Shown here one piece after another: positions 5,869-42,655 of a stretch of DNA of 64,000 bases. Position 1 is the first letter of the stretch, and every line of letters begins with the position of its first letter. The DNA is from Thermotoga neapolitana DSM 4359 (lineage in GTDB: Bacteria; Thermotogota; Thermotogae; Thermotogales; Thermotogaceae), in NCBI RefSeq assembly GCF_000018945.1, contig NC_011978.1, positions 962,729 through 1,026,728 of the forward strand, given 5' to 3'. A program made the translations under genes and the position numbers. The notes under the pieces are model-generated. The model did not search any database. It saw only the letters and a list, made by a program, of their open reading frames with translations, and was not told the origin of the DNA.

Positions 5869-6945
5869 ATGGACGAAATAGAACTGAGACATCTTCTCCA
5901 CATGAATCCAGAACCCTCCTTTAAGGAATTCAAGACCCAGGAGATTCTCAAATCGGCGATCCAGAAGATCGGTTACGGAAAGATAATGGAGGTTGCCGGA
6001 ACAGGCCTGGTCGTTGAGAAGAAGGAAACAGAGGGACCCTACGTTGTGTTGAGGGCGGAAATGGACGCACTTCCCATCAAAGAGGAGACAGGATGGGAAT
6101 TTGCCTCAAGAAACGACTACATGCACGCCTGCGGTCACGACTTTCACATGAGTGCCCTCTTCGGTGCCATGAAACGATTGAAGACTGTACGAAAGAATTT
6201 CCTCTTTGTTTTTCAGCCTGCCGAAGAAACCGGTGGTGGCGCAAAGGAGGTTGTTGAGTTTCTAAGAAAAAACTACACCATCAAAGCCGCTGTTGGATTC
6301 CACGTGACGGACGAGTACGATGTGGGGACGGTGGTGTCGAGAGCCGGGGTGTTGTTTGCCTCGGCGACGGAATTCGATGTATACTTTAAAGGTGTCCCTG
6401 CTCACATTGCCTTTGCCGAAAAAGGAAAAGACGCTTTGAAAGTGGCTGTTTCTTTCCTGCACTGGCTTTATGGCAGAAAGTGGGATGCCCTCGTTGGTGT
6501 TGGGAAAATCGTTGGTGGTCGGGTGAGAAACGTGGTTCCTTCAGAGGTGAAGATAGAAGGTACCATAAGAGCAAAATCGTTGAAGATAGCAGAAGAAATA
6601 TTATCAGAGATGAAGAATCAACTTTTGAGTCTCAAAGATAGTTCTGGTGTTGATTTTTCTCTCGAAAAGGGAAGTGTCTATCCGGAGGTGAAGGTCAACG
6701 CAGACCTTCTGGAGATATTGAAGAAAACCTGTGAAAGATTGAACCTCAGGTTCATCGAATGCGAAATGAAGAAGACTGGAGAAGACTTTGGATACTTCAC
6801 GCAGGTGTTTCCATCTCTTTCCTTCTGGTTTGGTGTGGGAGAAGGGGAAAAGAGAGTTGGACTTCATCATCCTTGCTTTCTTCCAAAGGACGAGTACATA
6901 CCTCTGGCATCTGAGCTTCTTGCCTTTCTTGCGGAGGCAATATGA
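5869..6945 (+). CDS. N-acetyl-diaminopimelate deacetylase, M20 family
   Basis: An M20D-type metallo-amidohydrolase of 358 residues. Seen motifs are LRAEMDALPI (residues 62-71), the metal-binding HACGHDFHM (residues 86-94), QPAEETGGGAKEV with the catalytic Glu near 119, and GFHVTDE. The nearest family roles are hippurate/IAA-type hydrolases and N-acetyl-LL-diaminopimelate deacetylase. The operon position between lysA and fur, together with dapH, makes the diaminopimelate role the best inference: it would remove the acetyl group to give LL-diaminopimelate for DapF. The ATG directly follows the lysA stop, and the end overlaps the Fur ATG by 4 bases. Confidence 0.88.
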   Translation: MDEIELRHLLHMNPEPSFKEFKTQEILKSAIQKIGYGKIMEVAGTGLVVEKKETEGPYVVLRAEMDALPIKEETGWEFASRNDYMHACGHDFHMSALFGAMKRLKTVRKNFLFVFQPAEETGGGAKEVVEFLRKNYTIKAAVGFHVTDEYDVGTVVSRAGVLFASATEFDVYFKGVPAHIAFAEKGKDALKVAVSFLHWLYGRKWDALVGVGKIVGGRVRNVVPSEVKIEGTIRAKSLKIAEEILSEMKNQLLSLKDSSGVDFSLEKGSVYPEVKVNADLLEILKKTCERLNLRFIECEMKKTGEDFGYFTQVFPSLSFWFGVGEGEKRVGLHHPCFLPKDEYIPLASELLAFLAEAI

Positions 6946-7370
6946 GGAGTGTGAACGAGATGAATCTGGAAGAGATTGTCGAACAGTTGAAAGCAAAAAA
7001 GATCAAGTTGACGACACAGAGAATGGAAATCATAAAGTTCGTATCGAAGATGGAAAAAGGACACTTCGAAGCAAAGGAACTGTTCTCTGTCCTTTCAAAA
7101 AAGATACCATCCCTTTCCATAGCAACGCTGTACAGCACCCTGTACCTTCTTGTGGATCTCGGTGTGATATACTCTTTCAGCGATGGGCAGAAAACTATCT
7201 TCGACTTCAACCCTGCACCACACGGACACTTCGTATGCAGGATCTGTGGAAAGATAGAAGACATCGAGATAAAAAAACTGGATCTTGAAAAGATCAGGGG
7301 AAAGAGAGAGAAGATAGAAATCGTCATACGTGGTGTGTGTGAAGATTGTCTGAAGAGGGTGAAAGATTGA
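6942..7370 (+). CDS. Fur-family metalloregulator
   Basis: A 142-residue DNA-binding repressor of the Fur/PerR/Zur family. The winged-helix N-terminus contains the typical KLTTQRMEI and IATLYSTLYLL recognition helix. The C-terminal domain has HGHFVCRICGK and CEDC, the two CxxC pairs that hold structural zinc. Whether it senses iron, peroxide or zinc cannot be told without comparing regulatory-site residues. The ATG overlaps the stop of the deacetylase, with GGAGG (6933-6937) four bases ahead, so it is co-transcribed at the tail of the lysine operon. No Fur-box-like palindrome is evident nearby. Confidence 0.9.
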   Translation: MRSVNEMNLEEIVEQLKAKKIKLTTQRMEIIKFVSKMEKGHFEAKELFSVLSKKIPSLSIATLYSTLYLLVDLGVIYSFSDGQKTIFDFNPAPHGHFVCRICGKIEDIEIKKLDLEKIRGKREKIEIVIRGVCEDCLKRVKD

Positions 7371-7759
7371 GGTTTTTCACCCAGTTGTTGTCTATTCTTC
7401 TGATAGTTGTGGGCACAATTGGATTTATAGGATGGGTGGCTTTTTATTTCCTTGAACCCTACATTTCCACTTTTCTGGGGGTTAGCGTTCCGAAGAACTT
7501 TCTTGCGGTGTTGCTTTCTTTGTTTCTTCCGTTTCTCTTTTCGGGAATTTCCTTGAACTATTACACTTCTTCTGGAAAGAAATGGCTTGCGGTACTTGGT
7601 TTTCTTCTTCTTTTTCCTTCCCTGGTAGCCCAGCTCTATGGTCTTTACGTCTTTGGAAATCTTGTTTCCAGACTCATCGGTGTATACGTTCTCTTTTTAC
7701 TCTTCACCGTGGTGTTGCTTGCCTTCTTTTTGACTGTCATCAGGAGGGATGAGTCCTGA
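7367..7759 (+). CDS. Small four-helix membrane protein, function unknown
   Basis: I do not recognise this 130-residue protein. It has four strongly hydrophobic segments (about residues 5-26, 40-60, 70-92 and 97-122) separated by short polar loops, and ends with IRRDES, so it should be an integral inner-membrane protein. The TTG at 7367 overlaps the fur stop (TTGA) and follows GAGGGTGA at 5 bases, so it is chosen over the upstream TTG 7346. The end overlaps the CTG start of tmcAL. Position between fur and tmcAL suggests co-transcription but gives no functional clue. Confidence 0.75.
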   Translation: MRFFTQLLSILLIVVGTIGFIGWVAFYFLEPYISTFLGVSVPKNFLAVLLSLFLPFLFSGISLNYYTSSGKKWLAVLGFLLLFPSLVAQLYGLYVFGNLVSRLIGVYVLFLLFTVVLLAFFLTVIRRDES

Positions 7760-9033
7760 AAGTCCTCGGTGTTGTGGTTGAATACAACCCGTTCCACAAC
7801 GGCCACCTCTATCATCTGACACAGGCTAGAGAGATCGTAAAACCTGAATACACAATTGCTGTGATGAGTGGGAACTTCTGTCAAAGAGGAGAACCTGCGG
7901 TGATAGATAAATTTGCCCGCGCCGAGATTGCCCTGAAAATGGGGATAGACGTTGTCCTGGAACTTCCAACGACTTTTGCCATCCAGGATGCGGGTGGTTT
8001 TGCGTTCGGTGCTGTGAGTCTGCTCGACGCAACTGGTGTTGTCACAGATGTTGTCTTTGGAAGCGAGTCCAACGATATAGATTTCCTGTGGCAGGTGGCG
8101 AAAATCCTTTTTGAACAGCCTGAGGAATACAAATCGTTTCTGCATGAAGAATTGAAGAAGGGCCATTCTTTTCCAAACGCGCGCAAATTTGCTTTGATGA
8201 GGTACTTTTCCCTCAAAGGATGGAACGAAAAGAACGTTCTGAGACTCGAAAAGTCCAACGACATCCTTGGAGTTGAATATCTTCACTCTGCCCTTCGAAT
8301 AGGATCTTCGATCAGGTTTCACACGATAAAGAGAGTGGGAGCAGAAGAAAAGGACGGTTCTTTCAAAGGAAAATTCTCAAGCGCCACAGCGATCAGAAAT
8401 CTTTTGAGAGAGAAGAGATGGGACGAGACCAGGGAATCCCTTCCGGATGCATCCTACGAGATCCTGATGAGAGAGTTCAAAGAGGGAAGAGGCCCTGTGT
8501 TTCTGGAGCACATGGGAGATTTCATGCTGGCGTTTTTCAGGTTGAAAGACAGAGAATACTTTGAAAAAATACACGGGTTTTCCGAGGGGCTGGAAAAAAG
8601 GTTTCAAGAGTGTGCCAGACAGACGGGGTCGTACAGAGATTTCCTGGAGTGCGTCAAGGCGAAAAGATTCACTTTTTCACGAATAAGAAGACTGTCTCTC
8701 TTCTCTGTTCTGGAAATGAGCAAGGAATTCGTTGAAAAAAGCAACGAAAAGGGGCCTCAGTACATCAGAGTGCTTGGTTTCACTGAAAGAGGAAGAAGGA
8801 TCCTGGCGATCATGAGAAAGAAAACAAAACTACCCATCGTAACCAACATGTCTCTTTACAGAAAGGTGCTGGAAAAAACAGACCTGCCTGTGGATAGAAA
8901 CCTCTTCATTGAGCAACTGAAACTCGATGTGAAGGCAACCAATTTTTACTCCACGTTCTTTCCGTCGAGGGAAGAAAGATGCGGAGAAAGGGACTTTGCA
9001 ATTCACCCGGTTTTTTTGAGGGCAGAGACATAG
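7756..9033 (+). CDS. tmcAL: tRNA(Met) cytidine acetate ligase (CTG start)
   Basis: TmcAL uses ATP and acetate to form N4-acetylcytidine at the wobble position of elongator tRNA-Met. The N-terminus has the nucleotidyltransferase-like VVEYNPFHNGH motif, then SGNFCQRGEPA and DKFARAEIALKMG, all hallmarks of the family (formerly UPF0348). The frame has a stop at 7750 and no ATG, GTG or TTG before the VVEYNPFHNGH strand. CTG 7756 is the only start that preserves the first beta strand KVLGVV and it sits 7-8 bases after GGAGGG (7743-7748), overlapping the previous stop as CTGA. GTG 7774 is the fallback. The 425-residue protein overlaps rsmB convergently by 31 bases. Confidence 0.88.
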   Translation: MKVLGVVVEYNPFHNGHLYHLTQAREIVKPEYTIAVMSGNFCQRGEPAVIDKFARAEIALKMGIDVVLELPTTFAIQDAGGFAFGAVSLLDATGVVTDVVFGSESNDIDFLWQVAKILFEQPEEYKSFLHEELKKGHSFPNARKFALMRYFSLKGWNEKNVLRLEKSNDILGVEYLHSALRIGSSIRFHTIKRVGAEEKDGSFKGKFSSATAIRNLLREKRWDETRESLPDASYEILMREFKEGRGPVFLEHMGDFMLAFFRLKDREYFEKIHGFSEGLEKRFQECARQTGSYRDFLECVKAKRFTFSRIRRLSLFSVLEMSKEFVEKSNEKGPQYIRVLGFTERGRRILAIMRKKTKLPIVTNMSLYRKVLEKTDLPVDRNLFIEQLKLDVKATNFYSTFFPSREERCGERDFAIHPVFLRAET

Positions 9034-10298
9034 AACGGTGTAAGGGTCTCGTCTGGTAGCATCAGAAATCCAAAGCCGTCCCACAACCCTTCTACTCCGT
9101 AATCCTCCAATCTTTTTCTCAAATCGATCACTTCAACATCAGGGGTTTGCTCAGCGAAGGCTTTTATGACCTCTGTGTTCTCTTCTTTCGTTATGGTGCA
9201 TGTGCTGTACAGCAAGATGCCTCCTTTCTTCAAGAGTTTCCACGACTGAGAAAGTATTCTAAACTGTTTTTCCGAAAGTTCTTTGAACTCTTCTTTTTTT
9301 GCTCTTCTCAACACCTCTGGATGGTTTCTTGCCGTCCCAAGAGAAGAGCACGGTGCATCCACAAGGATTCGATCGAACTCATCTTGAATGAACTCCGTGA
9401 GGCGCTCCGCATCTGCGAGTTTGATCTTCACAGAGGAAAGTTTCAGGCGTCTCACGTGTTTTTCGACCAGTTGTAACCTTTCCATGCTCACGTCTGTTGC
9501 CAGAATTTCACCTTTATCCTTCATCAGTTCAGCAATGAAGGTTGTCTTTCCACCCGGAGCAGAGCATGTGTCCAGTACTTTCATATTCGGTTCCAGATCC
9601 ATGAGGAGCGGTACGATCTGAGAAGATTCTCCCTGAACCGTGGCAAGGCCTTCCGTTATGACCTTCGAATCGTTCAGAGGTACTCCCAGTTTCTTTATCA
9701 CAACAGAAAATGGAGAATGTTTTCCATAAATAGCTTCTGTTCCCTCTTTTGAGAGGATCTCTATGACTTCCTCTCTGGTCGTAACAAGCGAGTTCACACG
9801 AAGCACGGTTGGAAGCGGTTTCTGATACCACTCCATGATCCTCAGCACAACTTCTTCTGGAAGAAAGGACCTCCAGTAGTCGACTAGCCACTTTGGATGT
9901 GAATAAACAAGATGAAGGTCGCTGGGAGGTGGGACACTCTTCACTCTTCTCAGCACAGCGTTGACAAGTTTTTTGAAGTTTTCGTTTTTGACCAGTTTCA
10001 CCGTTTCACTCACTGCGGCGTAATCCGGCACACCATCCATGAAGAGAAGCTGATAGACTCCCATTCTCAAGGCTACCCTCACGGCTGGTGGAATGTCTGG
10101 ATTTCTGAGAAGTTGGTTTATATACCAGTCCAGGAGTTCTTCCTTCCTCATGACTCCCCACACGAGTTCCTTGAGGAATCTCCTGTCTCTATCGTTCAAA
10201 ACAGAGAGGACGCTGTCCACGTCCTCTCTGTCCAGAAATTTTTCCTTTTCATACTTTCGAAGGAGCCTGTAAGCGAGTAATCTCACGTTTGTTCTCAT
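9003..10298 (-). CDS. rsmB: 16S rRNA cytosine-967 C5-methyltransferase
   Basis: RsmB (Sun/NOL1/NOP2 family) methylates a cytosine in 16S rRNA. The 431-residue protein has an N-terminal NusB-like RNA-binding helical domain (to about residue 140) and a Rossmann methyltransferase domain with VLDTCSAPGGKTTF for S-adenosylmethionine binding, DAPCSSLG (motif IV) and LLYSTCTIT carrying the catalytic cysteine (motif VI). The ATG overlaps the stop of the preceding zinc-peptidase gene (10295-10298). It is the last gene of the phoH-led minus operon and converges on tmcAL, also an RNA-modification gene. Confidence 0.93.
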   Translation of the reverse strand: MRTNVRLLAYRLLRKYEKEKFLDREDVDSVLSVLNDRDRRFLKELVWGVMRKEELLDWYINQLLRNPDIPPAVRVALRMGVYQLLFMDGVPDYAAVSETVKLVKNENFKKLVNAVLRRVKSVPPPSDLHLVYSHPKWLVDYWRSFLPEEVVLRIMEWYQKPLPTVLRVNSLVTTREEVIEILSKEGTEAIYGKHSPFSVVIKKLGVPLNDSKVITEGLATVQGESSQIVPLLMDLEPNMKVLDTCSAPGGKTTFIAELMKDKGEILATDVSMERLQLVEKHVRRLKLSSVKIKLADAERLTEFIQDEFDRILVDAPCSSLGTARNHPEVLRRAKKEEFKELSEKQFRILSQSWKLLKKGGILLYSTCTITKEENTEVIKAFAEQTPDVEVIDLRKRLEDYGVEGLWDGFGFLMLPDETLTPFYVSALKKTG

Positions 10299-32873: not shown

Positions 32874-33503
32874 ATGGCAAGGTACACAGGACCTGTTTGC
32901 AGGCTTTGCAGAAGGGAAGGCATGAAACTCTACCTCAAAGGTGAAAGATGCTACACGGACAAGTGTGCTTTCGATAGAAGACCCTACGCTCCTGGACAGC
33001 ACGGCCAGAGGAGAAGTAAGCTCACTCAGTATGGAATACAGCTCAGAGCCAAGCAAACGGTCAAGAGAATATACGGCATCCTCGAAAGGCAGTTCGAAAG
33101 GTACGTTGAAAAAGCTATGAAGAGAGCAGGCGACACGCGAGAAAACCTGATTCAACTTCTCGAGGCAAGGCTCGACAACGTCGTGTACAGGATGGGCTTT
33201 GCTATCAACAGAAGACAGGCAAGACAGCTCGTCAACCATGGACACTTCCTCGTAAACGGGAAAAAGGTTGACATTCCAAGCTATCTTCTGAGACCGAACG
33301 ATGTGGTGGAGGTCAGGGAAAAGAGCAGGGACATAGAAGTGATCAAGAAAGCCATAGAGTTCAACAGGGAAAGAAACACGGTGCCATGGATAGAGGTTGA
33401 TTTCGACAACTACAAAGGAACCTTCCTGAGGTATCCACGTCTTGAAGAAGTCACAGATCTTCCGGTCGATCTGCAGACTGTTATCGAATTCTACTCGAGG
33501 TGA
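32874..33503 (+). CDS. rpsD: Ribosomal protein S4, zinc-binding form
   Basis: S4 nucleates 16S rRNA 5'-domain assembly. The 209-residue protein has an N-terminal CRLC (Cys10, Cys13) followed by CYTDKC, the zinc-binding form, then [15 protein letters not shown] and an S4 RNA-binding domain ([31 protein letters not shown]). It begins after GGAGGGAAGAAA. It overlaps the upstream extension of rpoA, which begins 5 bases after the stop. Confidence 0.97.
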
Positions 33504-41253: not shown

Positions 41254-42108
41254 ATGGTTGTGGAAAACAGGCTGGAAAAGGAAAAACCCGCAGTGGGAAT
41301 GGAAACCACCGTGTTCGTTCACGGTCTGCCCAGAAAAGAGGCAATTGAACTTTTCAGAAAGGCAAAGAAGATCTCCGAAGAAATGGGATTTCAGCTTGCA
41401 GTGGTGGGTGTCTTGAAAGGAAAGATCATCTTGGGAATGAATGAAGATGAACTCACCATCATGATGAACGAAGGTTCAGAAAAAATAGGAACAAGGGAGA
41501 TTCCGATAGCGCTGGCAAAGGGAATGAACGCCGCAACGACCGTGAGTGCCACCATCTTTCTCTGCAAAAGATTTGGGATAGACGTCGTTGTGACGGGTGG
41601 TACGGGTGGTGTTCATCCCGGTGGAGTGGACATTTCCCAGGATCTCACGGAGATGGCATCTTCAAGGATCATTCTTGTGTCCAGTGGTATAAAGTCCATC
41701 CTCGATGTGGATGCAACGTTCGAGATGCTTGAAACTCTGGAAATACCAGTAGTGGGATTCATGACAGATGAATTTCCCCTCTTTTTCTCAAGAAAAAGTG
41801 GGAAAAAGGTGAAGAGAGTAGAGAATGTAGAAGAGATCCTGAGAATCTACAGGACCATGGAGGAACTGAAACTTGAAAAGACTCTCATGGTGCTGAATCC
41901 TGTTCCAGAAGAACACGAAGTTCCACGAGAGGAGATCGAACATCTTCTGGAAAACATCGAACTGAAAGTGGAAGGGAAAGACGTAACACCCTACCTTCTC
42001 AGAAAGCTTGTTGAGATAACGGGTGGTAGAACTCTGAAGGCAAACCTTTCTCTTCTTGAGGAAAACGTGAAACTTGCCGGAAAGATAGCACTGGCACTTG
42101 GAAGGTAA
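41254..42108 (+). CDS. psuG: Pseudouridine-5'-phosphate glycosidase
   Basis: PsuG splits pseudouridine 5'-phosphate into uracil and ribose 5-phosphate, allowing salvage of the modified nucleoside. The 284-residue protein has METTVFVHGLPR near the start, GMNAATTVSATIFL, VVTGGTGGVHPGG, SQDLTEMASS and MTDEFPLF, all family marks. The T. maritima homologue has a known structure (from memory). It lies 11 bases after cobO. The pseudouridine kinase that makes its substrate is not in the window. Confidence 0.94.
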   Translation: MVVENRLEKEKPAVGMETTVFVHGLPRKEAIELFRKAKKISEEMGFQLAVVGVLKGKIILGMNEDELTIMMNEGSEKIGTREIPIALAKGMNAATTVSATIFLCKRFGIDVVVTGGTGGVHPGGVDISQDLTEMASSRIILVSSGIKSILDVDATFEMLETLEIPVVGFMTDEFPLFFSRKSGKKVKRVENVEEILRIYRTMEELKLEKTLMVLNPVPEEHEVPREEIEHLLENIELKVEGKDVTPYLLRKLVEITGGRTLKANLSLLEENVKLAGKIALALGR

Positions 42109-42112
42109 CAGA

Positions 42113-42123
42113 TATGGTATACT
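42113..42123 (+). promoter_or_regulatory. Candidate extended -10 promoter before rpmH
   Basis: TGG directly before TATACT (42118-42123) forms an extended -10 element just after the psuG stop. No good -35 lies at 16-18 bases; TTGGAA is present at 14. Transcription would start near 42130, about 40 bases before rpmH. Confidence 0.45.
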
Positions 42124-42170
42124 AAAAATCGATGGTACTCCAGACACCGTGAAGAGGGAGGTCAGGCAAG

Positions 42171-42305
42171 ATGAAGAGAACGTACCAGCCTTCAAGAAGA
42201 AAGAGAAAAAGAACACACGGCTTTCTTGCAAGAAAGAGAACCCCAGGAGGAAGAAGAGTTCTCAGGAACAGGAGGAAGAAGGGTCGCTGGAGACTGACTG
42301 TATGA
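42171..42305 (+). CDS. rpmH: Ribosomal protein L34
   Basis: A 44-residue gene. It reads [20 protein letters not shown] onward and ends GRWRLTV, the standard L34 sequence: Arg/Lys-rich with the invariant HGFLAR. The ATG is 9 bases after GGGAGG (42156-42161). The stop overlaps the rnpA start as ATGA. The rpmH-rnpA-yidD-yidC-jag order is the conserved cluster next to the replication origin in many bacteria, though dnaA is not in this window. Confidence 0.96.
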
Positions 42306-42655
42306 ACGAGCGTTTCACCAGAAAGGAACGCCTGAGGCTCAGGAAGGATTTTCTTGAGATATTCAAAGAAGGAAAGAGTCTGCAAAACGAGTATTTTGTG
42401 GTTCTGTTCTTGAAAAACGGTCTTGATCACTCGAGATTGGGAATAGTGGTGAAGAGAAAGTTCGGAAAAGCGACCAGAAGAAACAAATTGAAAAGATGGG
42501 TAAGAGAAACGTTCAGGAAAAACAAGGACAAAATACCGAAAGGTTTCGATATCGTGGTGATCCCCAGGAAGAGATTGTCCGAAGAGTTTGAAAGTATCAA
42601 CTTCCGGGTGGTTCAGAAAAAGTTGCTCAGTCTCTTAGAGAGGATAGAGGAATGA
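42302..42655 (+). CDS. rnpA: Ribonuclease P protein component
   Basis: RnpA assists the catalytic RNA in trimming tRNA 5' ends. From ATG 42302 the protein has 117 residues with [16 protein letters not shown], the family RNR motif region [21 protein letters not shown], and [13 protein letters not shown]. The start overlaps the rpmH stop (ATGA). Unusually, the rnpA frame is open across all of rpmH and back to 42098, with a GTG at 42149 in frame. In Thermus an extended rnpA that contains rpmH in another frame is known. The short form is preferred here. Confidence 0.94.

Follow-up and report, generated by a model that had tools for sequence, protein, structure and literature searches.

A very likely CTG start codon for tmcAL, kept across the genus Thermotoga

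A non-AUG start codon is a known trait of infC, the gene for IF3, and E. coli infC autoregulates through start-codon discrimination. TmcAL, the tRNA(Met) cytidine acetate ligase, is the enzyme responsible for ac4C34 in elongator tRNA-Met; it modifies the CAU anticodon of that tRNA. Among start codons, CTG is rare: the excerpted texts of two papers put it at about 0.024% of annotated bacterial starts, or 20 in nearly 85,000 genes (PMC11983097, PMC11497404). An earlier note on the DNA analysed here had also called natural CTG starts rare. According to an excerpt of one of them, CUG output in E. coli is 0.86% of that of AUG (PMC11497404). Switches to CUG are also few: the part of a further source consulted lists 2 from 61,358 AUG, 1 from 5,080 GUG and 1 from 2,468 UUG ancestral starts (PMC5622118).

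Among the closest described systems is RepFIB rep, a replication gene of E. coli plasmids, known to us from part of its paper (PMC11983097). Like the putative start of tmcAL in Thermotoga neapolitana, that of rep is a CTG behind a good ribosome-binding site. Annotations commonly begin rep at a GTG further downstream, the same error that mechanical calling makes for tmcAL. The distance to that GTG is 14 codons in rep and 6 in tmcAL. Unlike the tmcAL start, that of rep was proven, both from the N terminus of the protein and by mutation, in which changing CTG to CTC abolished replication; an overlap with a stop codon, present at tmcAL, goes unmentioned for rep in the excerpt (PMC11983097). At the level of the protein, T. 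maritima TmcAL (5y0r) and its relative (5y0p, 5y0n) belong to the same family as the tmcAL product. Our literature search for a tmcAL CTG start found no publication naming the CTG. For T. maritima itself, the excerpt of a multi-omic paper states that start differences of <10 residues are unresolved without direct proteomic evidence (PMC3636130).

The window is the whole 64,000-nucleotide stretch of the T. neapolitana DSM 4359 chromosome that was analysed (NC_011978.1, positions 962,729 to 1,026,728); its relevant features are collected in Table 1. Direct reading confirmed the layout described in the earlier note. The tmcAL frame is closed by a TGA, so its start cannot lie further upstream; GTC (7753-7755), CTG, AAA GTC CTC GGT GTT and GTG (7774-7776) follow in that order. 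No ATG, GTG or TTG precedes this GTG in the frame, and ORF calling by mechanical rule places the start there. The CTG stands 7 nt after GGAGGG, or 8 nt counted from GGAGG, the spacing of 7-8 bases given earlier. Its bases are shared with the stop of the upstream gene, forming CTGA. This is the geometry of other adjoining gene pairs in the window, as had also been pointed out: four-base ATGA overlaps occur at 2087, 3437 and 30946 (plus) and at 10298 and 13978 (minus), and one pair overlaps as GTGA, at 33500.

Table 1. Features of the tmcAL start region and of two survey genes (window coordinates unless marked as outside the window)
Feature	Position	Strand	Basis
Fur-family regulator gene, just 5' of the 137-aa protein gene	6942..7370	+	ORF call, family search
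Upstream hydrophobic protein, 137 aa, TTG start; TGA 7757-7759 overlaps CTG	7346..7759	+	ORF call, comparison
Shine-Dalgarno GGAGGG, within last codons of upstream gene	7743..7748	+	direct reading
In-frame TGA stop closing the tmcAL frame	7750..7752	+	direct reading
CTG, inferred tmcAL start codon	7756..7758	+	cross-species alignment
tmcAL, tRNA(Met) cytidine acetate ligase; 425 codons counted from the CTG, plus stop	7756..9033	+	NF010191, PF05636, 5y0r
GTG, first canonical in-frame codon, probably not the start	7774..7776	+	codon not conserved; strand loss
DegV-family gene	L087:8757-9671, G000:C1 about 851,485, outside window		no ATG/GTG/TTG near N terminus
infC (IF3)	G000:C1:868690-869228 (L194), outside window	minus	no canonical start with Shine-Dalgarno; AAGGAGG (most species) then ATC

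The identity of the product is well supported. The NCBIfam model NF010191 matches at 455.2 bits, above its curated cut-off of 360, and over nearly the full length (the query, P0001, has 426 residues and is matched from 3 to 422); Pfam HIGH_NTase1 (PF05636) matches at 430.8 bits. Counted from the CTG, the nucleotidyltransferase HxGH motif is HNGH at residues 14-17, with H14, G16 and H17 invariant in all 14 aligned Thermotogales sequences. An AlphaFold model built on this 14-sequence alignment has a mean pLDDT of 91.3 and places the first strand at residues 3-8. The nearest solved structure is 5y0r, whose chain equals the protein of a relative (G005) from codon 2 onward, its Met1 falling on the CTG codon. 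Through this T. maritima sequence, the start position at the CTG codon is already used in practice. In the crystallised recombinant protein an ATG was presumably supplied, hence the natural start is untouched by the structure. The 137-aa upstream protein is conserved in all seven Thermotoga and in the sister genus and gave no family match in the NCBIfam/Pfam search. In one species (G009), an extra G makes its gene end two codons earlier.

Aligning the first codons across relatives, a check named in the earlier note, carries the main argument. All seven Thermotoga genomes have CTG at the tmcAL start position and an in-frame TGA two codons before it, and all seven have GGAGGG at 7-8 nt from the CTG; the Shine-Dalgarno segment is AGGAGGGATGA in six of them and AGGAGGGGATGA in the seventh. 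The residue at codon 0 varies (V, T, R, I), CTG is constant at codon 1, and in codons 2-10 the changes are mostly synonymous, a coding-type pattern directly after the CTG: codon 4 is CTC, CTT or TTG, all Leu, and codon 5 is GGT, GGA or GGC. Between the last stop and codon 7 or 8, five of the seven species have no canonical start; in the other two, codon 4 is a TTG, which lies inside the conserved N-terminal block.

Outside the genus, the same position is held by ordinary start codons. Across 45 Thermotogales genomes the aligned codon is ATG in 25, TTG in 11, CTG in 7, CCG in 1 and ATA in 1, so that 36 of the 38 genomes other than Thermotoga have ATG or TTG and none has CTG. In the sister genus the codon is TTG and forms part of a TTGA overlap. 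Both exceptions lie outside Thermotoga; the CCG genome has a GTG one codon upstream, and the ATA genome has an ATG four codons upstream. The latter is the one genome in 45 with the feature that the earlier note had named as counting against CTG, an ATG at another place; within Thermotoga no such case occurs. More widely, among the best 80 of 574 relatives (mostly Firmicutes, some possibly duplicating Thermotogales already counted), none of the 79 loci with a readable motif has a CTG start, L172 being left out. A canonical start lies at most 3 codons before or 1 after the expected place in 78 of these 79, and the sole exception, L113, appears frameshifted. Because CTG and TGA are kept in all seven Thermotoga and the aligned position is a start codon elsewhere in the order, tmcAL very likely starts at CTG 7756. 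By the same comparison the CTGA arrangement is judged to be more than chance, since the CTG is invariant in seven of seven and ATG or TTG occupies its position in 36 of the 38 other Thermotogales.

Other readings of the region were weighed against this one. Translation from GTG 7774, or from a species-specific TTG or GTG, would yield a slightly shorter TmcAL. It would use the first canonical codon of the frame, and a GTG occurs at codon 7 or 8 in six of the seven species and a TTG at codon 4 in two. The codon aligned with GTG 7774 is nevertheless not conserved (GTG, GTG, ATA, GTC, GTC, GTT, GTA; GTG in 2/7), and the Shine-Dalgarno would be about 25 nt away. Such a start would also leave out V, L and G at residues 3, 4 and 5, invariant in all 14 aligned Thermotogales proteins, and cost residues 3-6 of the first strand, predicted to span 3-8; the earlier claim that it would delete the first beta strand is thus upheld by the model for most of that strand. 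We regard a start at GTG 7774 as very unlikely, and weak internal starts (TTG at codon 4, GTG at codon 7 or 8) may exist in some Thermotoga. An out-of-frame ATG at 7749 was rejected: it is just 1-2 nt away from the Shine-Dalgarno, and in T. neapolitana the frame that it opens is no longer than 10 codons. Stop read-through was looked for in the start region and found unsupported, as was RNA structure in its neighbourhood (z values of -0.78 and -0.02).

TmcAL might instead be made as a fusion, by a -1 slip just before the upstream TGA after which ribosomes would run on into tmcAL. No more than one base separates the upstream frame from the CTG, and the upstream gene has an internal Shine-Dalgarno about 10 nt ahead of it, but the last upstream codon differs between species (TCC, CCC, CGC, GAC) and a slippery run is absent. 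Moreover, the stop of the G009 upstream gene comes sooner and lies in the very frame of tmcAL, and the crystallised T. maritima protein starts at the CTG position, unfused, which leaves this route exceedingly improbable. Just as hard to credit is a sequencing error concealing an ordinary start codon; the upstream gene and tmcAL lie in different frames, where an indel might mislead, yet the assemblies of six species have the same CTG and frame relation and the seventh has the CTG too, which contradicts an error.

The preferred reading is initiation at CTG 7756; on comparative grounds we hold with high confidence that this codon is the start of tmcAL. The strong Shine-Dalgarno in the final codons of the upstream gene would position the CUG in the P site, where initiator fMet-tRNA would pair with it although the first base of the codon is mismatched. 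The protein would most likely start with Met (MKVLGVVVEYNPFHNGH...) and not with Leu, and initiation at the CTG would give an N-terminal peptide (f)MKVLGVVVEYNPFHNGH or KVLGVVVEYNPFHNGH. In six of the seven Thermotoga, ribosomes terminating at the overlapping UGA could restart on the CUG; this restart and the strong Shine-Dalgarno would probably offset the weakness of CUG. The expected effect would be that this tRNA-modifying enzyme is made at a low, coupled level. A further candidate, an altered initiator tRNA more tolerant of CUG, found no support: the initiator tRNA is ordinary in all seven Thermotoga, with the standard three G-C pairs in the anticodon stem.

Whether the CTG is held by the overlap or by selection was also considered. 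In six species the upstream gene has a final sense codon (TCC, CCC, CGC, GAC, GAC, GAC, encoding S, P, R, D, D, D) whose third base is the C of the CTG, and a C to T change at that base would be silent in the upstream gene and yield a TTG start. In G009 a TGA in the frame of tmcAL closes the upstream gene 6 nt ahead of the CTG, and the codon is still CTG; the overlap thus does not force CTG. As yardsticks, among window ORFs with seven species, 12 of the 235 internal Leu columns with CTG in T. neapolitana have CTG throughout, and a third-base C is kept in all seven in 677 of 3112 columns. Within the upstream gene, third-base C is kept in 9 of 31 columns across six species (the codon at the CTG included) and in 3 of 30 across seven. 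By itself, the invariance of the C is modest evidence. The CTG retained in G009 hints at some pressure to keep this codon at the tmcAL start, though against these yardsticks the hint is weak. The CTG of all seven Thermotoga may come from a single ancestral change, which would account for every one of them; selection for CTG is only suggestive.

A survey of non-canonical starts served as a control. It compared 304 kb of T. neapolitana with 300 kb from each of two relatives and covered 191 conserved ORFs, with infC as a positive control for the recovery of odd starts by species comparison. A canonical start with a Shine-Dalgarno match is common to all three species in 142 of these; 19 of the 49 remaining ORFs, those in which a non-canonical codon is shared and has a Shine-Dalgarno match, were inspected by eye. 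Three of the 19 look like real non-canonical starts: tmcAL (CTG), infC (ATC) and a DegV-family gene (ATT). In our judgement the other inspected ORFs are chance matches inside genes, true starts whose alignment had shifted, or ambiguous cases. The infC and DegV family assignments were confirmed by family search, and their starts are probably two other non-canonical cases. Seven loci were fetched for each gene and one was unmatched by motif; the ATC of infC stands at the aligned place in 6/6 Thermotoga loci read, and the ATT is kept in 6/6. An ATT just past GGGTGA may be the start of the DegV-family gene. An earlier control, which scored conserved columns ahead of the first canonical codon in 80 window ORFs, did not discriminate tmcAL, because neighbour-gene overlaps and antisense ORFs scored as high or higher; at least 15 of the 79 other ORFs equalled or exceeded it.

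Two further loci drew attention during these comparisons. A membrane-protein gene outside the window (L069, about 2330-2995; 304-kb local 266330-266995) has a putative start that aligns as ATG here and TTG in G009, and as CTG, then GTG, in G005. On the plus strand, frame 42089-42655 is open far upstream of a conserved ATG in several species; it resembles rnpA, with rpmH overlapping in another frame.

In having a non-canonical start conserved within the genus, infC resembles tmcAL. Autoregulation is known for infC in E. coli. The CTG at tmcAL might conceivably be kept as a sensor, initiation answering to IF3 level or stringency or to tRNA-Met modification in an infC-like feedback loop; we consider this very unlikely. 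Relevant to the IF3 part of the idea, the IF3 gene itself has ATC at its start place in Thermotoga, and a feedback loop is conceivable in that TmcAL itself acts on the tRNA-Met anticodon CAU.

As read from these alignments, the putative CTG start of tmcAL is a new, genus-wide case in Thermotoga of a known rarity. Gene finders limited to ATG, GTG and TTG would miss it and cut off the N terminus of TmcAL, and species comparison can recover such non-canonical starts, as infC illustrates. A genus-wide CTG in a housekeeping tRNA-modification gene would offer a clean natural test case for non-canonical initiation in a hyperthermophile.
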